NCBI GenBank assembly: GCA_945907765.1
Contig: CAMDTO010000011.1
Span: forward strand, 1-37,028
Reading direction: 5' to 3'
DNA length: 37,028 bases
From: Thermoflexus hugenholtzii JAD2
GTDB taxonomy: Bacteria; Chloroflexota; UBA11872; UBA12225
Shown here: positions 5,018 to 24,584 of the stretch, piece by piece
How the letters are laid out: each line of letters starts with the position of its first letter
How positions within the stretch are numbered: position 1 is the first letter of the stretch
Position numbers and translations under genes: made by a program
Notes under the pieces: generated by a model
What the model saw: the letters and a program-made list of their open reading frames with translations, nothing else
Databases searched by the model: none
Told to the model about the DNA's origin: nothing

Positions 5018-5944
5018 TCACGCCTTCGACGGGTCGGTCATGTGGTCGGCCGGATTGCGCCATGAGCGCGTGGCCTTCCAACCCAGCAGTCGCTTGGCCC
5101 GCGCGTTGGAGATGCCCGCCTCGGTCGCACCGATCATCGCCATGCCCGGGACGTTGGCGGTGCCCGGATACGCCCGCGCGATCAGGTCTCGCGTCGGTTC
5201 CAGGCCCCATGAGTCATCTTGCACCGCATACAACTCGGTGCACGCTGCCTCGGGGTTGTCGCTCTCGAGTGCGAGCCGGAACATCGCCGCAAGGTCTCGA
5301 GGATCGGTGTAACTGAAGAGCGCCCGTTCTCCGGACAGCGGGTTGGCCTTGAAGTGGGTTTCCATGTTCGGGTAGTCCCACGGTCGGGCCACGAGGCTTG
5401 GTCGAATAGACACCACGCGCAGTTTCCCTGCCGTCCGACGGTGGATCTGTTCAGCGGTCAACTCGCCAAGCAGCTTCGACAGGCCGTACGGATCCTGTGG
5501 TCGGTTGGCGTGGGTCTCGTCGACGGGCACGAAGTCGGGCAAGTGCAGGTGCGTGCGGTACCCCTGCCCCAGCGTATTGATGCTGCTTGCCATTGCGAGT
5601 GCCTTGAGACCGAGTACGGCTGCTGCTTCGCACGCATTGAAATTACCGACGACGTTGGTCGTGAAGACGTGGGTGTCCGGGAACGTGCCTGGGGAAGCAA
5701 TGGCTGCGAGGTGGATCGCCGCATCGGCACTGGCGAAGACCTCTATGAGGTCGCCAAGGTTCTCATGGTTCCCGATCCGGTAGCGTACCCCCGGCACTGC
5801 CGGTTGGAGCCCCCGGGGTGTCGCATGCTGGGGTGGGCGTTCACGGTCCAGCACGGTCACGGTCCACCCGTGCGCGACCAGTTCGCGCACCACCCATCCG
5901 CCAATCCACCCGCACCCCCCCGTAACCGTCACTCGTCGTGTCAT
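5018..5944 (-). CDS. NAD(P)-dependent epimerase/dehydratase (extended SDR)
   Basis: MTRRVTVTGGCGWIGGWVVREL (TGGxGxIG nucleotide-binding motif), YGLSK (YxxxK), LLGWKATRSW tail. ORF opens at 5995; Met at 5944 precedes the Rossmann motif. Confidence 0.88.
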   Translation of the reverse strand: MTRRVTVTGGCGWIGGWVVRELVAHGWTVTVLDRERPPQHATPRGLQPAVPGVRYRIGNHENLGDLIEVFASADAAIHLAAIASPGTFPDTHVFTTNVVGNFNACEAAAVLGLKALAMASSINTLGQGYRTHLHLPDFVPVDETHANRPQDPYGLSKLLGELTAEQIHRRTAGKLRVVSIRPSLVARPWDYPNMETHFKANPLSGERALFSYTDPRDLAAMFRLALESDNPEAACTELYAVQDDSWGLEPTRDLIARAYPGTANVPGMAMIGATEAGISNARAKRLLGWKATRSWRNPADHMTDPSKA

Positions 5945-5964
5945 TTGTTCCACTGTCCCCTTCC

Positions 5965-6690
5965 TCATGCCCTGTGTGACTGGCGTGCAAGCCACGCACG
6001 CGCCGCTTGCACTTTGCCAGAACGTGCCGGTCGCAGTCGCGTCATGCCTGCAACCAGGTTCGAGACCTCCGTGACCACTTCCGGTGCCCCGCGGGCCAGT
6101 TCGATCTCCACGTAGCGGCGCACATACGGGTGCCCTTCCAACCGGACCTCGTCTAGCGAAAGGATGACCTCGGCGTAGTCATGCGGGGCGCCTGTGTTCG
6201 CGTGACGACGCAGTCTCAGGTTGCGCCTCGGATTGACCAGGACCGCGCCGCCGGCAAGGTCGCCGGGGTACGCAATCCCCCGTGCCCGAAGCGCGTCAAT
6301 GACGGGACGGGCTTCGGCGACTGAGCCCCATTCACGGACCGGGACGCTGACCAGCATCGCCGCCGTGAGTTCCGTCCGCGCCATGACCCCCTCGCCCGTC
6401 TCCCCTGCATGTGCATTCGCTTCGCTTGGGCCACCCGGTGCATTCCCGGCCGGTCCCTTGAGGGTCAACTCGCCGATGTCGTCTCCATCAAGTGATCGGA
6501 TCCGCAAGGTGCACCGTTGCCTCGCCAACCCATGGCCGGGAGTGTCGAAGTAGGTATCCCTCAGACGGGTCTCGGTCTGTTCCACCACCCGCCAAGGGCC
6601 AAATGCGCCGGCCTCGGCAAGGACGGCGAACGCCTGACGCGACGCCCGCAACTTCACCTCGATTTCGATCAGCGTGGGTGCTCCCGGCAT
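5965..6690 (-). CDS. CYTH domain-containing protein (triphosphate tunnel metalloenzyme superfamily)
   Basis: N-terminal EIEVK (ExExK signature), RLRDTYFDTPGHGLARQRCTLRIR, and later LRLRRH and EIELARG strands. ATG at 6690 overlaps the upstream methyltransferase stop. Confidence 0.85.
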   Translation of the reverse strand: MPGAPTLIEIEVKLRASRQAFAVLAEAGAFGPWRVVEQTETRLRDTYFDTPGHGLARQRCTLRIRSLDGDDIGELTLKGPAGNAPGGPSEANAHAGETGEGVMARTELTAAMLVSVPVREWGSVAEARPVIDALRARGIAYPGDLAGGAVLVNPRRNLRLRRHANTGAPHDYAEVILSLDEVRLEGHPYVRRYVEIELARGAPEVVTEVSNLVAGMTRLRPARSGKVQAARAWLARQSHRA

Positions 6691-7881: not shown

Positions 7882-9090
7882 CTAGTTGCCCGACCGCCGA
7901 ACGACCGCATCCGGGCGTTCGGTCAGTCCCGGCAGGAGTGATGTTCCCAGGCCGGGGACATTTGGCAGCGTGATGTGCCCGTCGGCCACGATGGGCAGGC
8001 CAGTCACCAGTTCGGTGTACCACCCGGTGTAGAAGGCACGCACGACCTCCTGGATCAAGGTATTCGGGGCATTCATTGCCACATGCACGCCCGCCGCCCA
8101 GGTCACCGGACCGGTGCAGTCATGCGGTGCGACTGGCAGCCCGAAGGATTCCGCCAACGTCGCGATGGCCTTGCCTTCGGAGATGCCTCCGCACCAGCCA
8201 AGGTCCAGCATGACGTAACTGGCGGCTCGCGCTTCCATGAGCTCACGGAATCCACCACGGTTCCCGAGCAGTTCGCTTGCAGTCGTCGGGATCCGCGTCC
8301 CATGCGCAAATTGGGCCAGCGATGCGATGTCGTCAGGACGGACTGGGTCCTCGATCCAGAATGGCCGGATGTCCTCGCGCTCGAATGCCTGCGCGATCTG
8401 CAGGGCCGCCGGCGTCTGCCAAAGGCCATGCAGTTCGACCATCAGGTCCATGTCGTAGCCGACCACTTCACGTACCCGCCGGAATGGACGCATCGCGGTG
8501 TCGAGTTCACGTGGCGAAATCGAGGTCCCGTTCGTCCGGTACGCAGCCTCGTCAAAGGGCCACATCTTCATGCCCGAGATGCCCATGGCCAAGAGGCTCT
8601 GGGCAAGTGGACCCGCATCACCGGTCAACCAGGCGTCGAGGTCTTCGTATGGGCCGATGCTGTCGACGCCCACGCCCCAGTTCTCACGTGCCTGGCCGAC
8701 TGTCTTGCGGACGTACCGGTAGCCGGCGCAGGTGTTGTAGACCCGCACGCGGTCGTGGGAGGCTCCGCCAAGCAATTCGTAGACGGGTGCTCCCAGGTGC
8801 TTGCCCTTGATGTCCCAGAGCGCCATGTCGATCGCGGAGAGGCCCCGGCGTTCCACCCCGGTTCCCTTCGTTCCCACGTAGCCCGGCAAACTAGTGCGCA
8901 GTCGGTCGATGCGACCGGGATCCTGCCCGATCAGCTTCGGCGCTACGGTCTCGTGCAGGTATGACGCGACTTCGGGTGCGCCGAAGAACGTCTCACCCAA
9001 CCCGACAATCCCCTCGTCGGTATGAACCTGCACGAAGAGGATGTTGCCGAACTCCTCCAGTTGGATCGTTTCGATCCCGGTCACTTTCAT
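7882..9090 (-). CDS. Mandelate racemase/muconate lactonizing enzyme family protein (enolase superfamily)
   Basis: LSAIDMALWDIKGKHLGAPVYELLGG; metal-ligand-like positions LMVELHG, WIEDPV, TTASELL; PHDCTGPVTWAAGVH; substrate unknown. Confidence 0.9.
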   Translation of the reverse strand: MKVTGIETIQLEEFGNILFVQVHTDEGIVGLGETFFGAPEVASYLHETVAPKLIGQDPGRIDRLRTSLPGYVGTKGTGVERRGLSAIDMALWDIKGKHLGAPVYELLGGASHDRVRVYNTCAGYRYVRKTVGQARENWGVGVDSIGPYEDLDAWLTGDAGPLAQSLLAMGISGMKMWPFDEAAYRTNGTSISPRELDTAMRPFRRVREVVGYDMDLMVELHGLWQTPAALQIAQAFEREDIRPFWIEDPVRPDDIASLAQFAHGTRIPTTASELLGNRGGFRELMEARAASYVMLDLGWCGGISEGKAIATLAESFGLPVAPHDCTGPVTWAAGVHVAMNAPNTLIQEVVRAFYTGWYTELVTGLPIVADGHITLPNVPGLGTSLLPGLTERPDAVVRRSGN

Positions 9091-9183: not shown

Positions 9184-10317
9184 TCACCAGTTGGTGATGC
9201 TTCCATCGAGGCGACGCAACTGGGGCAGTTCGGCAATCTGGAACGGATGCTTGCGCGCCGCGTCACGGTCGAAGTCGATCCCGAGGCCCGGTCGCGTCGG
9301 TGGCAGGAGGTAGCCGTTCTCCCACGGAACCTGCACGGTCACGACGTCCATGAGTGAGGTGCCCGGTTTCCGGGGCTGTTCCTGCACGCCTACGAGTGGC
9401 GAGGCAAGATTGAGGTGCAGGCACGCCGCGGTCGAGACCGGTCCCAGCGGATTGTGGGTCGCCAACTTGATGTAATGCGTTTCGCACCAACCGGCGATCT
9501 TCTTGGCTTCGGTGAGACCACCGCAGATGCCAAGGTCGACACGGCAGAAATCCATCAGTTCTTCCTCAATGACCTGCCGGAACTCCCACTTGCTTGCGAA
9601 CTGTTCCCCGACCGCGATTGGCGAATGCACGTGTTGCCGGACCAGGCGCAGGCTTTGCATGCTTTCGGCGCGGATCGGATCCTCCATGAAGAAGGGGTTG
9701 AACTCCTCGACCGCCCGGCAAAGCCTGATGGAATCGGCCGGATCCAGCCTGGTGTGGATGTCGAAGCACAGCTCAACGCTGTCGCCAAGCGCCTTTCGGA
9801 GGGCCGCGAACTCCCGTACCGCCTGTGGAATGGCGACCGATGGTTCCAGGATGTTTCCGAACTCCGCCAGGCCCCAGCGGACGAACTTCCACCCTTCGGC
9901 AACATGCTTCTGGGCATTCTCAACCAATTCCTCGATGGACGGTCGCTGAATGTGCGGATAACACACGACCTTGTCGCGGCACAGGCCACCCAGGAGTTCG
10001 TACACCGGAACATTCAGGGCCTTCCCCTTGATGTCCCAGAGTGCGATGTCAATTGCCGCAATCGCCGAGGTCGCAATGTTCTGCGCCGGGAAGAAGCCGC
10101 CGCGCGACATCATCTGCCAAAGGTGTTCAATCCGGAACGGGTCCTGGCCGATCAGGAATGTCTTGAAGTGTTCGATGACTCCCTGGACCGCCAACTCACG
10201 ACCGGTCAGACCGGCTTCACCAATGCCCCAGATCCCTTCGTCGGTGTCGACCACCACGAAGAAGTAGTTCCGTGATCCTCCCCAGACCGGGTAGCACTCG
10301 ATATCCGTGATCTTCAT
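9184..10317 (-). CDS. Galactonate dehydratase-like enolase superfamily protein
   Basis: AIAAIDIALWDIKGKALNVPVYELLGG; ELCFDIHTRLDP (DxH), FFMEDPIR, VGEQFASKWEF, KLATHNPLGPVST, VQEQPRKPG, matching the arrangement of DgoD-type residues. Exact substrate not determinable. Confidence 0.88.
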   Translation of the reverse strand: MKITDIECYPVWGGSRNYFFVVVDTDEGIWGIGEAGLTGRELAVQGVIEHFKTFLIGQDPFRIEHLWQMMSRGGFFPAQNIATSAIAAIDIALWDIKGKALNVPVYELLGGLCRDKVVCYPHIQRPSIEELVENAQKHVAEGWKFVRWGLAEFGNILEPSVAIPQAVREFAALRKALGDSVELCFDIHTRLDPADSIRLCRAVEEFNPFFMEDPIRAESMQSLRLVRQHVHSPIAVGEQFASKWEFRQVIEEELMDFCRVDLGICGGLTEAKKIAGWCETHYIKLATHNPLGPVSTAACLHLNLASPLVGVQEQPRKPGTSLMDVVTVQVPWENGYLLPPTRPGLGIDFDRDAARKHPFQIAELPQLRRLDGSITNW

Positions 10318-11418: not shown

Positions 11419-11748
11419 ATGTCCTTCCTCGACCGTCTCTTTGGAAGCCTCTTCAGATCGGGCGGTCCGCGGTCCTCGGGGGACCCGAACGCGGTGTACA
11501 TCCACGTTCGTTGCCGGTTCTGCAAGGAAGCGATCCGTGTGCGTCTCAACCGCACCAGTGACCTGTCCCCGGATGATGACGGTGGCGGATTCGTGGTCCG
11601 CAAGTCGATTGTTGGTCAGAAGTGCTTCCGCCGCATCGAGGTCGACCTCGCATTTGATCGCAACTATCGTCTGGTTTCCGAGGATGTCACGGGTGGGACG
11701 ATGATCACTGCCGAGGACTGGCAAACCGAACACGCGCCTGCCTCCTGA
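11419..11748 (+). CDS. Small conserved-looking hypothetical protein with a CxxC pair and a third Cys
   Basis: 109 aa: VYIHVRCRFCKEAIRVRLNRTSDLSPDDDGGGFVVRKSIVGQKCFRRIEVDLAFDRNYRLVSEDVTGG. SD-like CAGGAG lies about 12-17 nt upstream. No named family recognised. Confidence 0.7.
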   Translation: MSFLDRLFGSLFRSGGPRSSGDPNAVYIHVRCRFCKEAIRVRLNRTSDLSPDDDGGGFVVRKSIVGQKCFRRIEVDLAFDRNYRLVSEDVTGGTMITAEDWQTEHAPAS

Positions 11749-11768: not shown

Positions 11769-13391
11769 TTGGTGGTCATCCTGCCGGTGCCGCTACGAGA
11801 CCGGCACGGGATGGCAAGCGGCATCGTTCTAGCGATTGAACCGATGGTGTCCACATCGCGGCCCTCGCCACACCCTGCGTTGCCTGCCGGTTCCCTCCGT
11901 CAGGCGGATCAAGGTGGATTAGCGCCTCGGCGTGAAGGGCCGGGCCCGACACACGAGTGGATCTCCACCCACCGCATCAGCGCCGTCATCGTGGGTTCCC
12001 TTGTCGCTTCAGTGCTTCTGGGGCTGGTGTCGGGGGCCGTTTCCCCGCTCGTTCCGGGAAGTGTCGTCGCATCCCTGATCGGCATCGCCCTCGCGTTTCT
12101 CTACCCGACACTTGCCTTGGCGGGCACCGTCGGCGTCATCGCCATCCTTCCGTTTGCGGTCGTGCCGCTTCGCCTTGGCGTGGCGCCCACGTTCCTGGAC
12201 ATCCTGACCGCCGTTGTCTGGGCCGTCTGGACCGTGCGTCTTGCGACAGGCCGGGATCGTGTGCGATTTCCGGCGCCGGTCTTCATGGCGTGTCTCGCCA
12301 CCGGGGTTGTCGTTACGTCCTATCTTGCTTCGCCGGACCCGCTCAGTTTGAACGAGACCGCCCGCATGTTTGCAAAGGTCTCGCTTGGGCACCTCATCGT
12401 GATCCCGGTGGCCCATCTTCTCCGTGACCGTGCGTCTATCCATGGTCTCGTTGGAACGGTCATCGTCGTGACGTCGATCGAAGCCGTGATCGGGATTGGC
12501 CTCTACCTGGTTCCGCGCGACATTGCCTACCGTTTGTTGGCGGCACTCGAACCACTTGGCTACCCAGTTGGCGATACCGTCCTCCGCTACCGGCCAGATA
12601 CCGACATCCTGCGCGCAATCGGCACGTCCATCGACCCGAACATGTTGGGCGCACTCCTGATGACCGGAGGGGCGCTTGCTATCCCGCAACTCCTGGCCAC
12701 CCACCCGATCTGGTCCCGACCGGTCACCATTGCCCTCCTGGCCCCGATCGCCATGGGGCTACTCCTGACCGAATCACGCGGTTCGTGGCTGTCCCTCGGG
12801 GCCGCGGTCATGATTGTCGGAGCGCTCCGGTACCGGCGCCTCTGGGTGGTGATCGGCGTGGCCGGCGCCCTCGCGGTCTTCCTGCCCCAGGCGCAACGGT
12901 TCACTGAACACCTGCTTTCCGGATTGCAGGCGCAGGACCGGGCGTCCTCGATGCGGCTCGACGAAATACGCAATGCCTATACCATTATTACTGGAGCGCC
13001 ATGGATCGGCGTCGGCTGGGGGATCGTTGGCCGGAGCATCGACCTAGAGTTCACGCGGGGTGTCTCGAACATCTACCTGACCATCGCGCAACGTTCCGGG
13101 ATACCCGCCCTTGTGGCATATCTTTCCGTCTGGGTGACCATTGCGTTGGGAATGTGGCCGGCAATCCGGCGCGCCAGCGTCGAGGTGCGCGACGATGGCA
13201 TCATGCTTGGAGGGATCGGTGCGATCGGTGGTGCCTTGGTCGCCGGAATGGTCGACCACCATTTCGTGTCATTTCCCCATCTGGTCACACTTCTCTGGGC
13301 ACTGACCGGGATGGTTCTGGCGCGTGCAGCGATCAACCTGGATGGCACTTCGGTCGTGAATGGTGCACCGCAGCGAGCCAGTGCCAAATGA
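11769..13391 (+). CDS. O-antigen ligase/polymerase-like (Wzy/WaaL-type) membrane protein
   Basis: Many hydrophobic segments; LTESRGSWLSL and GAPWIGVGWGIVGRS are typical of the O-antigen ligase domain. Start uncertain. Confidence 0.82.
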   Translation: MVVILPVPLRDRHGMASGIVLAIEPMVSTSRPSPHPALPAGSLRQADQGGLAPRREGPGPTHEWISTHRISAVIVGSLVASVLLGLVSGAVSPLVPGSVVASLIGIALAFLYPTLALAGTVGVIAILPFAVVPLRLGVAPTFLDILTAVVWAVWTVRLATGRDRVRFPAPVFMACLATGVVVTSYLASPDPLSLNETARMFAKVSLGHLIVIPVAHLLRDRASIHGLVGTVIVVTSIEAVIGIGLYLVPRDIAYRLLAALEPLGYPVGDTVLRYRPDTDILRAIGTSIDPNMLGALLMTGGALAIPQLLATHPIWSRPVTIALLAPIAMGLLLTESRGSWLSLGAAVMIVGALRYRRLWVVIGVAGALAVFLPQAQRFTEHLLSGLQAQDRASSMRLDEIRNAYTIITGAPWIGVGWGIVGRSIDLEFTRGVSNIYLTIAQRSGIPALVAYLSVWVTIALGMWPAIRRASVEVRDDGIMLGGIGAIGGALVAGMVDHHFVSFPHLVTLLWALTGMVLARAAINLDGTSVVNGAPQRASAK

Positions 13392-14554
13392 CTGTCCCGG
13401 TCGTCCTTGATGCCCGGATCATGGCGTACAACCGCACCGGGATCAGCCGGTACATCCGCCATCTTTATGAGGGCATGGCTTCGCTGCGCGACCGGTCATC
13501 AACCGGCACCGACCCGTTCCCGGTCGACGTAACGGTCCTCTCGGCCCGACGCGACACGGAACACTCGCTGGCAGCCTCTTGGGTGCGTTCGGCGACTGGC
13601 TGGACGCCTCCCCATCACCGCCTCGAACGCGTCACCCTGTCTGTCGAGATTGCGCGGACACTCATGCGTGCATTTCCGGCCCGATCGGGCGCCCGGCCCG
13701 TTCTGCACAGCCCGGATCATGTGTGCCCTGAACCGCTTTCAGTGCTCGGGGCACGCCAGTGGGCATCGGTCGTGACCGTTCATGATTTGTCATTCTTGCG
13801 CGTTCCAGAGACACATTCGGTAGAGAGCCGCCGGTATTATTCGGGCATCCACCGGACTGCGCGCACGGCCGAGCGCATCATCTGTCCATCCCAGGCGACT
13901 GCGGACGATCTGCTTGACATGACGACAGCAGACCCTGACCGGATCCGGGTCATCTACGAGGCGCCAGACCCTCGGTTTGGTGAAGTTGGACCAATCTTCC
14001 AGTCCGTCGGTGGCGCGCGACCGTACATCTTGACAGTCGGTTCAATCGAGAAGAGAAAGAATGTCAAGACAATTATCGACGCTGTTGCTGCGATGAGCCC
14101 GGCAGACAGACCAGATGTAAAGATTGTAGGATCGCCAGGATCGGCCTACGATGAATGCGTCAAACAAATAGCAATGTTTAGTATAGCAAATCGTGTCGAG
14201 TTTCTTGGCCGTGTGTCAACAGAAATGATCGCGAGTCTTTATCGTGGAGCCGCGGCAATGGTGTACCCATCACTCTATGAAGGGTTCGGGCTTCCGGTTG
14301 TCGAGGCAATGGCGTGTGGTGTGCCTGTTATCACGTCTACTTCATCCTGCCTGCCCGAAGTTGCAGGAGGTGCCGCCATTCTCGTCGAGGCGGAGGATGT
14401 GGATGGCTTGCGGGATGCGATCTCGAGGGTGATCGGTGACCGCGCCTTGTCGTCCGCGATGCGTGCGCGCGGACTGCGTCGGGCTGCGTCGTTTTCATGG
14501 GAGCGCGCGGCCACGGAGACGGTTGCGGTCTTCCTCGAGGCGTCACGCGCATGA
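13388..14554 (+). CDS. Glycosyltransferase family 4 (group 1)
   Basis: DARIMAYNRTGISRYIRHLYEGM N-terminus; YILTVGSIEKRKNVKTIIDA; YPSLYEGFGLPVVEAMACGVPVITS. ATG overlaps the previous stop (ATGA). Confidence 0.93.
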   Translation: MTVPVVLDARIMAYNRTGISRYIRHLYEGMASLRDRSSTGTDPFPVDVTVLSARRDTEHSLAASWVRSATGWTPPHHRLERVTLSVEIARTLMRAFPARSGARPVLHSPDHVCPEPLSVLGARQWASVVTVHDLSFLRVPETHSVESRRYYSGIHRTARTAERIICPSQATADDLLDMTTADPDRIRVIYEAPDPRFGEVGPIFQSVGGARPYILTVGSIEKRKNVKTIIDAVAAMSPADRPDVKIVGSPGSAYDECVKQIAMFSIANRVEFLGRVSTEMIASLYRGAAAMVYPSLYEGFGLPVVEAMACGVPVITSTSSCLPEVAGGAAILVEAEDVDGLRDAISRVIGDRALSSAMRARGLRRAASFSWERAATETVAVFLEASRA

Positions 14555-16845
14555 GCGCCGACGCGCCATCGCCCGGTCGTGTCCTCTTCCTGATGCCCCA
14601 GATGCCATGGCCTGCCACGCAAGGTACCGCGCTCAGGAACTTCCATTTGATGAGAGCGATCACCGATGCCGGCCTGGAAGTCGACCTGATCACGTTTGGC
14701 GACCCTCGGCGTTCCATTCCAACGGAGATCGATGCGGTCTGCGGCCGGATTGAGATAGTCCCTCTACCAATACGGAGCCTTTTGACTCGCGTGCGCACGT
14801 TCCTTGCCGGCGAGCCCGACCTCGCCTGGCGCCTTTCCTCGTCTGAGTTTTCGACCCGGCTTGATGGCATGTTGCGTGATGGCAGGTACGACGTGGTCCA
14901 GATTGAGGGTTTCGAGATGGCCGGGTACCTGCTTGGGCCCGGCGCCTTGCGTCGAGAGGCGTGGGACCGTGCGCCGTGGACGCTTGCTGGTCACCGAGCT
15001 CCGCGCATTGTCTTTGACGATCACAATGCCGAGTACCAGTTGCAGGCGTCGGCCTCCCGGGTGGATTCGCAGCGCCCGCGCCGATGGCCACTCGCGCTGT
15101 ACTCGTGGGTCCAGGCCTCTCGCATCCGACGTCGCGAGGCACTCTACGCGTCGGCTGCCGATGCCTGTATTGCCGTGTCAGATGAGGATGCCAATCTCCT
15201 TCGCGAGATTGCCCCGGGTGTGGCTGTCCAGGTGGTGGCGAACGGGATTGATGTGCGGTCGTACCGCAACGTTTCGTCGCCGACCGTCCCGCCCATTGTC
15301 TTCTTTGCGGGAAAGCTTGATTACCGCCCGAATGTCGATGCGTGTGAGTGGCTTGTGCGTTCGGTCTTGCCAACCGTGCGTGCGTCGGTCCCTGATGCCC
15401 GGGTTGTACTCGCTGGTCGTGACCCTTCACCGTCAGTCCGGGCGCTCGCGGGTCCTGACATCGAGGTTACTGGGTACCTCTCCGACGCGGACATGCGTGC
15501 CCGTCTCGCCGGTGCGACCGTCGCGGTCGTTCCGATCCGGATGGGAAGCGGGACGAGGTTCAAGGTCCTCGAGGCGATGGCTTCGGGTGTGCCGGTGGTG
15601 GCTACCCGCTTTGGTGCCGCTGGATCCGGCATTGTTGACGGTGTGCACGGCCTCTTGTCCGAGAATGCGTCGGATTTGGCGTCTTCCCTCGTCCGTGTGC
15701 TTCGTGATGCGTCGCTGGGGAATGCCCTGACCGTGCGGGCAAGGGAACTCGCCGAGGCGCGACATGACTGGTCGGCAATCACCCCGCACTTGGTCGCAGT
15801 CCACCGTCATCTCATCGGTGACGTGATGCCTCCGGCCAGTGTGATTGCAACTGTCCGGAACGAGGCACGAACAATTGCTGAAGTGATTTCGGGTGTCGCC
15901 CGACAGCAACCAGTCCCGGCGGAGATGGTTGTTGTCGACGGTGGCTCGGACGATGGCACGCTGAGCGTGGTCCGCGAGTGCGCGTCGCGCCTGGACGCTG
16001 CCTCTGCGGGGCTGCACCTCACACTCAGGACGGAACCCGGTGCCAACATCTCACGTGGGCGGAATCTCGCTGTTGAATGCGCCAAGGGTGACGTCATTGC
16101 GGCCGTTGACGCAGGGACGGTGCTTGCCTCGGACTGGTTCTCGCGTCTCGTGGCGCCATTCAGGGGGGATGCCCGTGTCGGTGTTGTCAGCGGGTTCTTC
16201 GTTGGTGCACCAGAGACAGATTGGGAGCGCGCCCTTTCGGCGACGACCCTGCCCTTGGTTGAGGACATCGACCCGGTGCGGTTTCTGCCGTCCAGTCGGT
16301 CGGTGGGGTTCCGGCGGTCCGATTTCGTCCGGGCAGGGGGGTATCCGGAGTGGTTGGACTACGGTGAAGACCTTGTTCTCGATCTTGCCCTGCGTCGCCT
16401 GGGCGTCGTGTTCCGGTTTCAGCCGCGTGCGGTTGTCCGTTTCCGTCCCCGTCCCACTCCTCGTGCCTACTTCCTGCAGTACTACCGCTATGCGCGTGGT
16501 GATGGGAAGGCGGGACTGTTCGCACGTCGGCACGCCATCAGGTACGGCGCCTACATCGGTGGCGCGCTGCTTGCGATGGGTGCCCTTGACGGTCGGGGAG
16601 GAAGACTTCCAGCTACGCTGTTGGTAGCTGGCGCAGTGGGCTATTTGCGTCGGCCGCTGTTGCGCCTCGCGGTCACCGCCTCTTCGCCAGCAGACTTGAT
16701 GCGGTGCGCACCCCTCCTGCCACTCGTGCGCATCGTTGGGGACGTGGCAAAGATGGCCGGCTACCCCGTAGGGTTGTGGTGGAGACATTCGCGCGGGGTC
16801 CTCTCCCATGATCGCCGACCGATCACTGCCTGGACCACTGAGTAA
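14551..16845 (+). CDS. GT4-GT2 two-domain glycosyltransferase fusion
   Basis: N-terminal GT4: FFAGKLDYRPNVDACEWLV, PIRMGSGTRFKVLEAMASGVPVVAT. C-terminal GT2: ASVIATVRNEARTIAEVISG, EMVVVDGGSDDGTLSVV, GANISRGRNLAVECAKGDVIAAVDAGT, YGEDLVLDLALRRLG. Continuous frame with no internal stop. ATGA overlap with upstream gene. Confidence 0.9.
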   Translation: MSADAPSPGRVLFLMPQMPWPATQGTALRNFHLMRAITDAGLEVDLITFGDPRRSIPTEIDAVCGRIEIVPLPIRSLLTRVRTFLAGEPDLAWRLSSSEFSTRLDGMLRDGRYDVVQIEGFEMAGYLLGPGALRREAWDRAPWTLAGHRAPRIVFDDHNAEYQLQASASRVDSQRPRRWPLALYSWVQASRIRRREALYASAADACIAVSDEDANLLREIAPGVAVQVVANGIDVRSYRNVSSPTVPPIVFFAGKLDYRPNVDACEWLVRSVLPTVRASVPDARVVLAGRDPSPSVRALAGPDIEVTGYLSDADMRARLAGATVAVVPIRMGSGTRFKVLEAMASGVPVVATRFGAAGSGIVDGVHGLLSENASDLASSLVRVLRDASLGNALTVRARELAEARHDWSAITPHLVAVHRHLIGDVMPPASVIATVRNEARTIAEVISGVARQQPVPAEMVVVDGGSDDGTLSVVRECASRLDAASAGLHLTLRTEPGANISRGRNLAVECAKGDVIAAVDAGTVLASDWFSRLVAPFRGDARVGVVSGFFVGAPETDWERALSATTLPLVEDIDPVRFLPSSRSVGFRRSDFVRAGGYPEWLDYGEDLVLDLALRRLGVVFRFQPRAVVRFRPRPTPRAYFLQYYRYARGDGKAGLFARRHAIRYGAYIGGALLAMGALDGRGGRLPATLLVAGAVGYLRRPLLRLAVTASSPADLMRCAPLLPLVRIVGDVAKMAGYPVGLWWRHSRGVLSHDRRPITAWTTE

Positions 16846-17831
16846 TGGTGCAATCAATTGACCATAACGCCAACCCTCTAACGGTACATGGCTGGAGGTC
16901 TCCGGTGTCTCGAGCTGGTGCGATCGTCGACGGATCGGTCGTCCGACAAGGACCCATCGTGTCCGTCGTCATCGTCACCTACAACGTTTCCGACCTTGTC
17001 ATCCAGTGCCTTCAGTCGGTCATCCTCAGCGAGGTGACCTTCGGACTGGAGATCATCGTCATTGACGCAGGGACCGACGGATCGGCAGATCGGATCAGGT
17101 CACGGTACCCAGGAATCACGGTCATCGAGGCGCCTGAAAACCCCGGTTTCGCGACGGCGTCCAATCTTGGCCTTCGACGTTCCCGCGGTAACTTCCTTCT
17201 CCTGTTGAACCCGGACACCATCATTCCGCCCAATGCGCTGTCGTTGGCGGTCGCTGGCCTCGAGGCGAACCCTGGCCACGGGATCGTTGGTCCCAAGCTT
17301 GTCCGGGCTGATGGGACCCTGGATCTGTCGGCACGCCGGTCGTTCCCGACTCCACGCATCGCCCTATACCATTTCCTTGGTCTGCCCAGACGATTTCCAG
17401 AAGTTCGCGAGTTTGGTGCCTACAACCTGACGTATCTGGACCCAGACAAGCCGGCAATCGTCGATGCCGTCGCCGGATCATTCATGATGGTCCGTCGTGA
17501 GGCTCTCGAGATCGCCGGTCTCTTCGACGAGTCGTTCTGGATGTACGGAGAGGACCTCGACCTGTGCCTTCGGATCGGCAAGGCTGGTTGGAAGGCCCGG
17601 TACGTTCCCTCCATTGTGGTGACCCACCTCAAGGGCCAGAGCAGCCGGACCCGGCCGTTGCGGTGCACCATCGAGTTCTATCGGGCGATGCACATCTTCT
17701 ACCGAAAGCATCAATCGCCGCAGGCCGGTGTCGTCCAGAACTTCCTGGTGACCATTGGGATCGTCGCGTTGGGCGCGGTTGCCGTGCTGCGTGATCAGAT
17801 GCGCCCGGAGGCGCACCGACGCGTTTCCTAG
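16845..17831 (+). CDS. Glycosyltransferase family 2 (rhamnosyltransferase-like)
   Basis: VSVVIVTYNVSDLVIQCLQSV, NPGFATASNLGLRRSRGNFLLLLNPDT, AGSFMMVRREALEIAGLFDESFWMYGEDLDLCLRI. TAATG overlap with upstream gene; the real start could be downstream. Confidence 0.93.
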   Translation: MVQSIDHNANPLTVHGWRSPVSRAGAIVDGSVVRQGPIVSVVIVTYNVSDLVIQCLQSVILSEVTFGLEIIVIDAGTDGSADRIRSRYPGITVIEAPENPGFATASNLGLRRSRGNFLLLLNPDTIIPPNALSLAVAGLEANPGHGIVGPKLVRADGTLDLSARRSFPTPRIALYHFLGLPRRFPEVREFGAYNLTYLDPDKPAIVDAVAGSFMMVRREALEIAGLFDESFWMYGEDLDLCLRIGKAGWKARYVPSIVVTHLKGQSSRTRPLRCTIEFYRAMHIFYRKHQSPQAGVVQNFLVTIGIVALGAVAVLRDQMRPEAHRRVS

Positions 17832-17932
17832 CCTGACAGGAATTCCCATCGTGACAGCGATTGACCGGATCACTAGCCGTTTGGGCAACGCCTCAGCGAC
17901 TTGTGGGCAGTCACGGACGCTCGGAGTGGCCG

Positions 17933-19558
17933 ATGGGAACTGAACTGGGCGGGCGTCGACGGCGTACCCGGAGCAATGCGCCGGGGGCCGCGGTTGGGCT
18001 GTCAGACGACCATGCAGGGTCGCCGATGGAACCGGTCGGTGAGCGGGACCTCGGGAATCGTCCCGCGATCGCGGTTCAGGAGAGGCGCCCCGGCTCCTCG
18101 TCGATGTACCGTGCCGTCGCCCGGGCGGTCGGCGCTCCCGTGTCGTTGACGACGTTCCAGCGCATCGCCCTCACGCCCGCGTTCCTGATCGTGGTTGACA
18201 CCATCGCCATTGGTGCCGGTTTCCTGGGCGCCTATGTGTTGCGGTTCGTTCTGCAGTTGCCGGTCGCGGAGGAGGTGCATAGCCTCCGCTCCTATGCCGG
18301 TTTCCTGTCACTCGCCATTCCCGTCATCCTCATTGCCCTTGCGGCATACGGCCTGTACCAGAGCCGGCAACTCGTGAATGCCGTCGACCAGGTGTTCCGT
18401 CTGTTCACCGCCGTACTCGTGGGCCTGGTCGTCACGGTCGCCATTGCATCGTTCGTGATCCGCGGATGGCCGGACTATTCGAGACTGTTGGTCGCCTACG
18501 TCTGGCTTGCGTGTTCGCTCCTTTCCTTCCTCGGCCGGCTCATGTGGATCCGCTGGAGAGGTTGGTTGGCGTCCCGAGGGTCAGGAGTCCGCACCACCCT
18601 GATCGTCGGGGCCGGTTCCGCCGGTGTCCGGGTTGCACAGCACTTCACGCGGTCGTCACACCTCGGATACCGCGTTGCCGGCTTCATCGATGGCACGCTT
18701 CCGGTTGGTGCGACCCCTGCAGGGACGCTCATTCCGGTTGTCGGCAGGCTTGAGATGATCGACGACATCCTGATCGCGATCCAGCCTCAGGAACTGATCC
18801 TCGCCGATCCGACCCTCTCGAACCTGGAGTTGATGAAACTGGTCAGCCGGTGCGAAGGGCAGCCCGTCGGGATCCGTGTCTATCCGGACTTGTTCCAGAC
18901 CCTTGTCAACGACGCATCACTTGTGAACCTGCAGGGATTGCCGCTGGTTTCCTTGCGCGCGAGTGAACTTGAAGGATGGCAACGGACGGTCAAACGCATC
19001 TTTGATGTCCTGTTCGCGGGAACGGTCCTCATCCTGACCGCGCCGATGATGCTGGTCATTGCCTTGCTTGTCCGCCTTGGGTCCCCGGGTCCGGTCTTCT
19101 TTGCCCAGGAACGCCTCGGGCAGGACGGAAAGAGATTTCACGCCATCAAGTTCCGGTCGATGGTCCAGGACGCCGAGAAGCGCAGCGGCCAGTTCTGGAC
19201 CGTGCCCAATGACCCGCGTCGCACACGTGTCGGCACGTTCCTGCGTCGCCATTCCCTGGACGAATGGCCCCAGTTCATCAATGTCCTTGTTGGGGACATG
19301 AGCGTTGTCGGCCCAAGGCCCGAGAGACCGATGTTCGTGGCCCAGTTCAGCGAAAGTGTCCCGGACTACCTCCGGCGCTTGCGTGAACGCGCTGGCCTTA
19401 CCGGTTGGGCCCAAGTCAACGGCTTGCGGGGTGATGTTCCCATCGAGGAGCGCACGAAGTATGACCTGTATTACGTGGATAACTGGTCACTTTGGCTGGA
19501 CATCAAGATCATCATGCGAACGGCGATACTCCTGATCCGTGACCGCAGTGCGTACTGA
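17933..19558 (+). CDS. Undecaprenyl-phosphate sugar phosphotransferase (WcaJ/WbaP-like polyprenyl glycosylphosphotransferase)
   Basis: N-terminal membrane helices, TTLIVGAGSAGVRVAQH CoA-binding-like domain, then KRIFDVLFAGTVLILTAPMM, GSPGPVFFAQERLGQDGKRFHAIKFRSM, RRHSLDEWPQFINVLVGDMSVVGPRPERP. Start chosen at ATG 17933; uncertain. Confidence 0.94.
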   Translation: MGTELGGRRRRTRSNAPGAAVGLSDDHAGSPMEPVGERDLGNRPAIAVQERRPGSSSMYRAVARAVGAPVSLTTFQRIALTPAFLIVVDTIAIGAGFLGAYVLRFVLQLPVAEEVHSLRSYAGFLSLAIPVILIALAAYGLYQSRQLVNAVDQVFRLFTAVLVGLVVTVAIASFVIRGWPDYSRLLVAYVWLACSLLSFLGRLMWIRWRGWLASRGSGVRTTLIVGAGSAGVRVAQHFTRSSHLGYRVAGFIDGTLPVGATPAGTLIPVVGRLEMIDDILIAIQPQELILADPTLSNLELMKLVSRCEGQPVGIRVYPDLFQTLVNDASLVNLQGLPLVSLRASELEGWQRTVKRIFDVLFAGTVLILTAPMMLVIALLVRLGSPGPVFFAQERLGQDGKRFHAIKFRSMVQDAEKRSGQFWTVPNDPRRTRVGTFLRRHSLDEWPQFINVLVGDMSVVGPRPERPMFVAQFSESVPDYLRRLRERAGLTGWAQVNGLRGDVPIEERTKYDLYYVDNWSLWLDIKIIMRTAILLIRDRSAY

Positions 19559-19636
19559 CGGATCCACCCCGGAGCCGGGTCCGCATTTCGCACCGCGTCA
19601 CCGGATTTACTGCCCCGTTTGCTATGCTGGGTGCTG

Positions 19637-19663
19637 TTAGCAGTCTCGTTCGGTGACTGCTAA
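19637..19663. promoter_or_regulatory. CIRCE element (HrcA operator), variant
   Basis: TTAGCAGTC-N9-GACTGCTAA, a perfect 9-bp inverted repeat. Consensus is TTAGCACTC-N9-GAGTGCTAA; it differs at one mirrored position. Lies 39 bp upstream of the hrcA ORF. TATGCT (19623-19628) is a possible -10. Confidence 0.93.
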
Positions 19664-19701
19664 CGCGATGGTCGTCACCGGTCCTGCGTTGACGTTGACG
19701 G

Positions 19702-20850
19702 TTGGTGAGGGTGATTGTCGTGGAGGGACGGAACGCCGCGGACCATGTGTTGACTGAACGCCAGGCTCGGATCCTGAAGGCGGTCGTCGACCAGTATGTC
19801 CGCCATGCGTCGCCAGTTGCCTCGGAAACGCTCGTCCGCGAGCATGGCCTGGGAGTCAGTTCCGCAACGGTCCGCAATGAGCTGGCCGAACTCGAGGCGC
19901 GAGGCTACATCTGCCAGCCCCACACCTCCGCCGGACGCATTCCGTCCGAAACCGGCTACCGGTATTTCGTGCAGCGCCTGATGGCGGAACGTCAACTCTC
20001 TCTGTCCGAACGGGTCACGTTGCGCCACCAGTTCCACCAGGTCGCCCTCGTCCGCGAGGAATGGTTGCAACTGGCAGCCGTCACGCTTGCCCGCGGTGTC
20101 CAGGCCGCCGCAATCGTCACCGCCCCCCACATGCGACAGTCGCGCCTCAAGCACGTCGAGGCGGTCCAGATGCAGGAACATCTCGGACTGATCATCGTCG
20201 TCCTGCACGACGGCACCGTGAAACAGCAATTGGTCGCACTGCCCGACGGCGTCACGCAAGCGCGCCTCTCCGCCGCGACCAGTCGCCTCAATCCGGTCTT
20301 CTCCGGGCGGACCCGTGTCGAGTTCAGCTTCAAGGTGTCCGAACTCCCCGAAGACCAGCCCCTCAGCACGGATGAGTCCTTCGTGTTCAGTCATGTGTCA
20401 AACATTGTCAAGGAAATCGACACCCGAGAGACACCTGTGTATCACTCGGGACTTGTCGAATTGCTTGACCAACCCGAATTTGCGCGGAGCGACCGTGCGC
20501 GGGCGATCGTCGAGCTTCTCGAACGACCCCAGACCTTGCGTGATGTCCTGATGCCAGGATCGGACTCGGACCTTCCCGCCGCCCTCGTGGACAGCAATCC
20601 GGTGCATGTCGTCATCGGAAGCGAGAACCGGTGGGACTGGATGCGCGAATGCGCTGTCGTGACGAGCCAGTACGGTCTCTTCGGCGAACTGACCGGGTTC
20701 ATCGGCGTTCTCGGTCCCGTACGTTTTCCCTACGGCGTAGCCGTCCCGGCTGTCCGGTACATTGCGCGCCTCATGACCGAGGTCCTCGTGAACGACTGGC
20801 CCTCGGGATCGTCGACCAGACCATCAGAGGAGATTGATCGTGTCAGCTGA
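19702..20850 (+). CDS. hrcA: Heat-inducible transcription repressor HrcA
   Basis: LTERQARILKAVVDQYVRHASPVASETLVREHGLGVSSATVRNELAELEARGYICQPHTSAGRIPSETGYRYFV is the HrcA winged-helix signature. Start could be TTG 19702 or a nearby GTG. Confidence 0.97.
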   Translation: MVRVIVVEGRNAADHVLTERQARILKAVVDQYVRHASPVASETLVREHGLGVSSATVRNELAELEARGYICQPHTSAGRIPSETGYRYFVQRLMAERQLSLSERVTLRHQFHQVALVREEWLQLAAVTLARGVQAAAIVTAPHMRQSRLKHVEAVQMQEHLGLIIVVLHDGTVKQQLVALPDGVTQARLSAATSRLNPVFSGRTRVEFSFKVSELPEDQPLSTDESFVFSHVSNIVKEIDTRETPVYHSGLVELLDQPEFARSDRARAIVELLERPQTLRDVLMPGSDSDLPAALVDSNPVHVVIGSENRWDWMRECAVVTSQYGLFGELTGFIGVLGPVRFPYGVAVPAVRYIARLMTEVLVNDWPSGSSTRPSEEIDRVS

Positions 20851-21460
20851 TTCGCAGAACACCGAGGCCGGCATGCCGTCCGGGACACGCGCCGAAGTCC
20901 GTGAACTCGAGCGGCAGCTTGACGAGGCCCGTGCCCAGGTCAAGGCTGCCGAGGAACGTGCCCAGGAGAACCTGGACCGTTGGCAGCGTGCCCAGGCGGA
21001 TCTGGTCAACTACCGGCGCCGGACGCAATTCGACCGTGAACAGGAGCTCAAGTTCGCCGGGCTTCCCCTCATCACGGAAATGCTCCGCATCTTTGACGGC
21101 TTCGACCGCGCGTGGAAGTCCCTGCCGGTGGCCCTCCGGAACCTCTCGTGGATCGAGGGCATCTGGATGCTTGACCAGCAGTCCCAGGAGATCATCCGCC
21201 GGACAGGATTGACCAGGATTGACCAGGCTGACCTACCGTTCGATCCCCGGATCCACGATGCCATCGCGACCGAACCCGGTGAAGGCGATCCGTACGTGCT
21301 TGAGGTCTTTCAGGCCGGGTACGAATTGCACGACCGTGTTGTGCGGCCGGCGCTCGTGAAGGCTGGGCCTCGTCAAGTTTCCGGGACGTCCGCTGAAGGT
21401 GCAGATGGGTCAGACCCGGTCCACCAGCACGACCACACGCACGACGAGACCGGCCGGTAA
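20840..21460 (+). CDS. grpE: Nucleotide exchange factor GrpE
   Basis: Coiled-coil N-terminus, RWQRAQADLVNYRRRTQFDREQELKFA, PFDPRIHDAIATEP, VLEVFQAGYELHDRVVRPALVKAG. GTG start with AGAGGAGA upstream; overlaps the hrcA stop. Confidence 0.95.
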   Translation: MSADSQNTEAGMPSGTRAEVRELERQLDEARAQVKAAEERAQENLDRWQRAQADLVNYRRRTQFDREQELKFAGLPLITEMLRIFDGFDRAWKSLPVALRNLSWIEGIWMLDQQSQEIIRRTGLTRIDQADLPFDPRIHDAIATEPGEGDPYVLEVFQAGYELHDRVVRPALVKAGPRQVSGTSAEGADGSDPVHQHDHTHDETGR

Positions 21461-21469
21461 GCGGGATAC

Positions 21470-23350
21470 ATGAGCAAGACCATTGGCATAGACCTCGGTA
21501 CCACCAACTCGTGCGTAGCGGTCCTCGAAGCCGGTCATCCGGTCATCATTCCGAATGCCGAGGGTTTCCGTACCACGCCGTCGGTGGTGGGTTTCACGCG
21601 ACAGAACGAACGCCTCGTTGGCGCGATGGCCAAGCGCCAAGCGGTCACGAACGCCGAGAACACCGTCGCATCCGTCAAACGGTTCATGGGCCGTCGGTTT
21701 GACACCCCTGACGTCGCCCGCGACGCCGTGAGAGTCCCGTACGCGGTCAATGCGTCCGAAAATGGCGATGTCCAGATCGTGGCGGCTGGTCGGGAGTTCG
21801 CTCCTCCGGAAATCTCCGCCATCATCCTTCAGAAGCTCAAGGCAGATGCCGAGGCGTACCTGGGCGAACCGGTTTCCGGGGCGGTCATTACCGTCCCCGC
21901 CTATTTCTCTGATGCACAAAGGCAGGCGACGAAGGATGCAGGTCGCATCGCTGGTCTCGAGGTCTTGCGCATCATCAATGAACCGACCGCATCGGCGCTT
22001 GCCTACGGGTTCGACAAGCGCCATGAGGGACGCATTGCCGTCTACGACCTCGGTGGCGGGACCTTCGACGTCTCCATCCTTGATATCGGTGAGGGCGTGT
22101 TCGAGGTCCGGTCCACCAACGGTGATACCCACCTCGGCGGTGACGACCTCGATGCACGGATCGTCGACTGGCTAGCCGGTGGGTTTGCGGCAAGCAACAC
22201 CATCGACCTCCGTCAGGACCGGATGGCCCTCCAGAGGCTCAAGGAAGCGGCCGAAAAGGCGAAGATCGAACTCTCGGGAGTGCTCGAGACCGAGATCAAC
22301 CTTCCGTTCATCACCGCCGATCTCTCCGGTCCCAAGCACCTGAGTGTCGTCCTTACCCGATCCAAGCTTGACCAATTGACCCAGGATCTTCTCGAGCGGA
22401 CCGTTGAGCCATGCCGGCGCGCGATGGCAGATGCCCGCCTCACCGCAGCCGACATCGACGAAGTGATCCTCGTGGGCGGTCAGACCCGCATGCCCGCTGT
22501 CGTGGAACTTGTCACGCGTATCTTCGGGCGTGAACCAACCAAGGGCGTCAACCCGGACGAGGTGGTCGCAGCCGGGGCGGCCATACAGGCCGGCGTCCTG
22601 GGTGGTGAGGTGACCGACCTGCTCCTCCTTGATGTCACGCCGCTTTCCCTCGGCGTGCGCACCCTCGGCGGCATCTTCACGCGCTTGATCGATCGCAATA
22701 CGACCATTCCGACCGCACGGACCCAGACCTTCTCGACGGCGGTCGATGGGCAGCGTCGTGTCGAGATCCAGGTCTTTCAAGGGGAACGGGAACTCGTCGA
22801 AGGCAATACCCTGCTTGGCAGGTTTGACCTCGACGGCATTCCTTCATCTGGCCGGGGCGTTCCCCAGATTGATGTGACCTTTGACATTGACGCAAACGGC
22901 CTCCTCCATGTTTCTGCACGGGAGCGGACCACTGGTGTTGAGCAGCAGGTGACCGTATCCGGAGCCAGTCGGCTCAACGAACAGGACGTCGAGCGAATGG
23001 TTGCGGAGGCACAGAAGGCCGCGACCGGCGACTTCCAGAAGCGGTCTCTGATCGAGGCACGAAACCTCGCCGATTCCCTTGTCTACCAGGCGGACCGGTT
23101 CCTCTTCCGCGCCGCCGACGGGCTTCCGGAAGAGTTCCGCGACCAAGTATCAGCGCAGGTTGACCGGGTGCGGACCGCCCTCGCGGGTGACGACGCCGTC
23201 GCCCTCCGTCAGGTGACGAGTGTCCTGCGCGATACCCTTCGTGACCTGAATCCCGGGGTGTCCGGGGCGCCGTTGCAGCAGGCTTCAGATCATCCCGATC
23301 AGGCCGACCCTCCCGGGCATGACCCGGACGTCTCGGTAACCGGAGAATAG
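21470..23350 (+). CDS. dnaK: Molecular chaperone DnaK (Hsp70)
   Basis: [115 protein letters not shown]. Confidence 0.98.
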
Positions 23351-23354
23351 CCCC

Positions 23355-24584
23355 ATGTCCAGCAAGCGTGACTACTACGAGGTGCTTGGCGTCGCCCGCA
23401 CCGCGACCGACGACGAATTGAAGAAGGCCTATCGGGCGCTTGCGCGCAAGCTTCACCCGGATGTCAACAAGGAGCCCGGCGCCGAGACCCAGTTCAAGGA
23501 CCTGTCCGAGGCGTACGAAGTCCTGTCGAATGCCCAGAAGCGTCAGATCTATGACCGCCATGGACACCAAGGCCTGCGTGCGGGTGGCGGAGGCGGTGGC
23601 CCCGCCGGTGCCGAAGGATTCCCGTTTGGCGACATTGGCGACATCCTCGAGTCGTTCTTCGGCGGTGGTGTCCAGGGCGGGCGTCCCGGTGCCACGCGTG
23701 GGTCCGATCTCCGGACGCAACTCGAACTCACCTTCGAGGAAGCCGTCTTCGGTTGCGAGAAGGAGTTGGAAATACCCCGCTGGGAGAATTGCCTGATCTG
23801 TGATGGTTCTGGGGCAGAACCGGGCAAGCCGCCAACCCGGTGTACCTCGTGCAATGGGTCGGGTGAAGTCCGGCGTGTCCAGCAAAGCCTGTTCGGGCAG
23901 TTCGTCAACGTCACGCCGTGTGACCGGTGCCGGGGCGCTGGCCAGGTCGTCACCCACCGTTGTGTCGAGTGCAATGGTCGTGGAAGCGTCCGCAAGACGC
24001 GACGCCTGACCGTTACCGTTCCCGCCGGTGTCGATAACGAGATGGAAATCCGCCTCAACGGGCAGGGCGAAGGCGGTGAGCGTGGCGGGCCGAGCGGGAA
24101 CCTCTACGTCCGCCTCGGGGTGAAGGCACACCCGCGTCTCAAGCGCGATGGTGCCGACGTCATCTGTGAATTGTCCCTCAACGTGGCCCAGGCTGCTCTT
24201 GGTGCCGAAGTGATGATCCCCACGCTTGCCGGTGACGAATCGTTCCGCGTTCCTGCCGGGACCCAGCACGGTCATGAGTTTCGCCTGCGGGACCGGGGCG
24301 CGCCTCGCCTGCAACGCAGTGGCCGTGGGCAGTTGCGCGTCGTGACCAAGGTTGAGGTGCCGACCGCGTTGACCGAGAAGCAGCGCGCGCTCTTCTCTTC
24401 CCTTGCGGAGTCGTTCGCGCCGCCCCCCGTTGCCGGCCCGCCTCCTTCTCCTGAACCCGGAACTGCCGGCGAGACATCCGCGCAGTCGCCGGATTCTGCC
24501 GAGGGTCGCACGGGCAAGTCCCGCAAAGGCAAGGGCATCATCGACAAGATGAAGGATGCGTTGGGCATCGACGGCGATGAGTGA
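23355..24584 (+). CDS. dnaJ: Chaperone protein DnaJ
   Basis: J domain with HPD ([12 protein letters not shown]), Gly-rich region, four CxxCxGxG repeats ([32 protein letters not shown]). Confidence 0.98.

Follow-up and report, generated by a model that had tools for sequence, protein, structure and literature searches.

An ancient, probably single, in-place fusion of GT4 and GT2 glycosyltransferase genes in a Chloroflexota polysaccharide locus

Results and discussion

The gene at 14551-16845 on the plus strand of the window, the 37,028-nucleotide stretch of DNA analysed here, encodes a fused GT4-GT2 glycosyltransferase of 764 residues. We propose that it derives from a single ancient in-place fusion of adjacent, coupled GT4 and GT2 genes on the stem of the window's family, and that the product has been selected as one protein (probability of about 0.85). 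One such event accounts for the fused gene throughout the family, the separate gene pairs of the outgroups, the common order of the locus and the gene trees of both halves.

The fused gene encodes a GT-B and a GT-A domain

The earlier note had described an uninterrupted frame of 764 codons carrying a GT4 and then a GT2 domain, and both the reading frame, which is open throughout and followed by a stop codon, and the Pfam matches agree with this description. A mechanical ORF finder starts the gene earlier, at an ATG at 14497. However, in the congener G001 no more than four in-frame codons precede the homologous start, which supports 14551 as the start of the gene. The N-terminal half (residues 1-421, 14551-15813) matches PF13439 at residues 27-235 and PF13692 at residues 248-386 (3.6e-27), and its GT-B fold together with the GT4 sequence models places it in CAZy family GT4. 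The nearest named NCBIfam model to this half is TIGR03087 (stp1, a glycosyltransferase of the PEP-CTERM/XrtA system), but the score of 189.4 bits lies below the cut-off of 316.65, and no exosortase locus was seen within the window. A linker of approximately seven residues (422-428, 15814-15834), delimited by comparison within the family and by the AlphaFold model, leads into the C-terminal half (residues 429-764, 15835-16842). The PF00535 match at residues 430-561 (4.6e-17) assigns this GT-A domain to CAZy family GT2, and the half includes C-terminal helices at residues 658-748.

The AlphaFold model of the whole protein has a mean pLDDT of 92.8 and a pTM of 0.92. The last helix of the GT4 half (residues 407-422) ends six residues before the first strand of the GT2 half (residues 429-435), and the high pTM across two domains suggests that the predicted domain arrangement is a settled one. 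All 50 PDB matches listed by Foldseek cover the GT4 half and include the GT4-type enzymes PimA, MshA and BshA; no PDB chain spanning both halves was found among these 50.

The fusion is conserved across five genera

A whole-genome search recovered the fused junction in all nine genomes examined from the window's family, which represent five genera with 53-95% identity. In each, the junction lies within one open frame, so that a single frame with both domains is kept between species. Full-length homologous frames are present in G001-G003 and G005-G007, while G004 and G008 contain partial frames that span the junction; the ends of their genes lie on other contigs and the junction itself is seen whole. 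The joint, measured between the HDW motif that closes GT4 and the TVxNE motif that opens GT2, spans 26 residues in eight of the nine genomes and 62 residues in G005. The linker of G005 (L136) contains a 36-residue insert rich in glycine and charged residues, the sole change in junction length in the family. In the four congeners the gene has 764 codons each, with zero indels, and a dN/dS of 0.13-0.25 in each half. Both halves evolve under purifying selection.

The two halves are separate genes outside the family

Separate but adjacent GT4 and GT2 genes are found in the sister family f2 and in three further families of the class, f3-f5, mostly with a short overlap or gap between them. The gap is approximately 50 bases in f2, whereas the pair overlaps by ATGA or GTGA in f3, by 8-14 bases in f4, and by TGATG in two genomes of f5. 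The order wzy-GT4-GT4-GT2-GT2-priming transferase is common to the fused family and to the families with a separate pair. The halves of the fused gene are orthologous, by position and by tree, to the unfused pair of the sister Chloroflexota families (e.g. G009, G016 and G013), which has the same gene order and neighbours but consists of two genes, adjacent or slightly overlapping. In a 400-genome sample of the phylum, in which UBA2235 has given its name to a class-level lineage (PMC10608941), homologues occur as separate genes, often with intervening genes or on different contigs, and the pair was nowhere detected as a same-frame fusion outside the window's family. Some genomes of the phylum showed long open frames (745-1010 aa) around one of the halves; of those examined (G176, G204, G119, G074, G050 and G190), none contained a same-frame GT4-GT2 fusion.

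The fused family forms one clade in both the GT4 tree (SH-aLRT 100) and the GT2 tree (SH-aLRT 93, a moderate value from a quick tree), and the inner branching of this clade agrees between the two. Because both trees are unrooted, with moderate support for GT2, the direction of the event, fusion and not repeated fission, is taken from how widely the two genes occur separately in other families and classes. The earlier note had suggested a recent fusion of two coupled genes, a view to be abandoned if close relatives all had two separate genes. The fusion of neighbouring genes is borne out but its recency is not, as the fused form is found in nine of nine family genomes from five genera; separate genes are the rule only outside the family. 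With fused and unfused forms at the same locus in sister families, the state of a glycosyltransferase gene pair before and after fusion can be compared cleanly in nature.

Active-site motifs depart from the consensus in fused and unfused enzymes alike

Both halves of the protein deviate from canonical motifs, which raises the alternative that one half alone is catalytic and that the other functions in docking or membrane binding. In the GT4 half the EX7E region (residues 325-341, 15523-15575) includes SGTRFKVLE, with serine in place of the first glutamate of EX7E and the second glutamate kept; the GT4 assignment accordingly follows from fold and profile and not from this motif. The GT2 half has D-A-G where a D-x-D metal motif would be expected, aligned with the D-A-D of 6yv7. 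Against this alternative, the unfused enzymes share both departures throughout the family: the first position of EX7E is serine or glycine in fused and unfused members, and serine in most of the unfused homologues sampled, while D-A-G or D-G-G occurs throughout this GT2 family, fused or unfused. As the same departures are present in unfused homologues, they did not come from the fusion. Furthermore, of the columns that are at least 90% conserved in unfused homologues, the window protein keeps 47 of 49 in the GT4 half and 65 of 66 in the GT2 half, in addition to the purifying selection that acts on both. We consider a single catalytic half unlikely. The motif departures nevertheless weigh against the two-transferase reading that we favour, and they do not fix the donor or the mechanism.

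The TGATG at the junction is coincidental

The earlier note placed an out-of-frame TGA at 15824-15826 and an ATG at 15826-15828 at the domain junction. Both are present, and the ATG is in frame as codon 426. The pentamer (15824-15828, plus strand) is formed by the in-frame GTG-ATG codons of Val425-Met426 and arises at Met426 because the preceding codon ends in TG. Such a combination is frequent: TGATG occurs 10 times in the fused gene and 69 times on the window's plus strand, and an NTG codon precedes 16 of the 108 internal ATGs found in a sample of genes from the window.

An in-frame ATG at a domain boundary, which in the window species follows closely on a weak GGTGA, could also allow internal initiation at 15826 and thereby yield a stand-alone GT2 protein. 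The congener G002, however, has AGG in place of this ATG, and the other genera have no methionine at the place of Met426, except for G005, in which a methionine lies inside the insert. The GGTGA is missing in G001 and G002. We therefore judge internal initiation very unlikely.

The pentamer could alternatively be read, as the earlier note implied, as the relic of an old stop/start overlap left by a recent fusion, and a real TGATG overlap between the two genes does exist in some unfused members of the class, namely those of family f5. Yet the fusion is common to five genera, four of which, all but the window's own, have no TGATG at the joint. That a relic should survive in a single genus is very unlikely, and even within that genus G002 has lost the ATG. 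Given how common the pentamer is, a recent fusion marked by it is highly improbable. With the ATG absent from G002 and the other genera, the GGTGA not kept and TGATG frequent, nothing points to a conserved site of restart or to a fusion scar; codon comparison and chance counts lead us to reject both roles, and the TGATG is a coincidence, no more than expected by chance.

Finally, a sequencing or assembly indel that joined two really separate genes, the other origin offered by the earlier note, is rejected as practically negligible: although the neighbouring genes overlap by few bases, such that a one-base error could join frames, and hrcA is apparently frameshifted in the MAG contig of G002, nine genome assemblies are concordant in the open junction, eight of them with the same 26-residue joint, and the congeners combine the absence of indels with low dN/dS across the gene.

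The locus suggests a role in repeat-unit assembly

The fused gene lies in a plus-strand series of overlapping genes. A Wzy/O-antigen-ligase-like membrane protein (PF04932) is encoded at 11769-13391; its start was assigned mechanically and the true one may be downstream, and the gene has the same place in the f1-f5 loci. It is followed by a separate GT4 glycosyltransferase gene (13388-14554), the frame of which was read from the sequence and which has an ATGA overlap on either side, with wzy at 13388-13391 and with the fused gene at 14551-14554. A separate GT2 glycosyltransferase gene (16845-17831) overlaps the end of the fused gene by TAATG (16843-16847). The ATGA and TAATG overlaps between neighbours noted earlier are thus confirmed. 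Further downstream, at 17861-19558 (mechanical start), is a polyprenyl-phosphate sugar-1-phosphate transferase of the WcaJ type, which scores 436 bits against TIGR03023 (cut-off 411). Matches to the flippase family PF01943 are found elsewhere in the genome.

Considering the WcaJ-type primer and the Wzy-like protein in the locus, and PF01943 elsewhere, the likeliest role of the fused enzyme is to add two sugars to a lipid-linked repeat unit, in keeping with the earlier note, which expected a real fusion to add two consecutive sugars. The glycosyltransferase most likely acts in two steps, within an exopolysaccharide locus of the Wzy type; the two transfers, their order and the sugars are inferred. 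In the proposed pathway the WcaJ-type transferase would prime undecaprenyl phosphate, and the fused enzyme would then add two sugars, one by its retaining GT-B half and one by its inverting GT-A half, with the lipid-linked acceptor possibly handed between the two active sites. Further sugars would be added by the separate GT4 and GT2 enzymes, and polymerisation or ligation of the unit would fall to the Wzy-like protein. A stricter version, in which a rigid two-site enzyme channels the lipid-linked acceptor from GT-B to GT-A and the D-A-G site perhaps works without the usual metal, is speculative and in our view doubtful.

Comparison with known fused glycosyltransferases

Fused transferases that act sequentially are well known, and the GT4-GT2 fusion, whose evolutionary history is clean, belongs to this broad kind. 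The capsule polymerase of Neisseria meningitidis serogroup W combines a GT4 domain and a GT97 sialyltransferase domain (PMC10361700). Like the protein described here, it carries a retaining GT4 domain at the N terminus and an inverting transferase at the C terminus of a single polypeptide, and it adds two sugars in turn, as we propose for the fused enzyme; it differs in that its second domain is GT97 and not GT2 and in being a capsule polymerase, and we claim no homology between the two fusions. Sequential sugar additions have also been shown experimentally for Klebsiella pneumoniae O7 ORF6, which has two GT2 modules (PMC11231755), and for Streptococcus dGT1, which joins GT-D and GT-A modules (PMC5063993). 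These too are fused transferase modules, but of other domain families and pathways. A text search of the literature for GT4-GT2 fusions, of partial coverage and so weak as evidence, returned as its sole match the label of a gene cluster and not a fused protein. The fusion opens no new kind of system. By a Rosetta-stone argument, the two separate enzymes would be expected to catalyse successive steps at many polysaccharide loci of Chloroflexota.

Further features of the region

At 11769-24584 of the window and in loci L129, L130 and L136-L138, the hrcA-grpE-dnaK-dnaJ genes follow downstream of the polysaccharide locus, an arrangement of families f1 and f2 that gives the heat-shock genes an unusual and conserved neighbour. 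In G002 (L141), the hrcA matches at 5420-6500 are split over two overlapping ORFs, probably owing to a frameshift in that MAG contig. Upstream of wzy, a 109-aa frame at 11419-11748 is shared with other genera of this family and has no Pfam match. On the minus strand, at 7882-9090 and 9184-10317, two tandem genes related to galactonate/mannonate dehydratases are divergent from proC; their nearest models are NF010624 or ManD-type.
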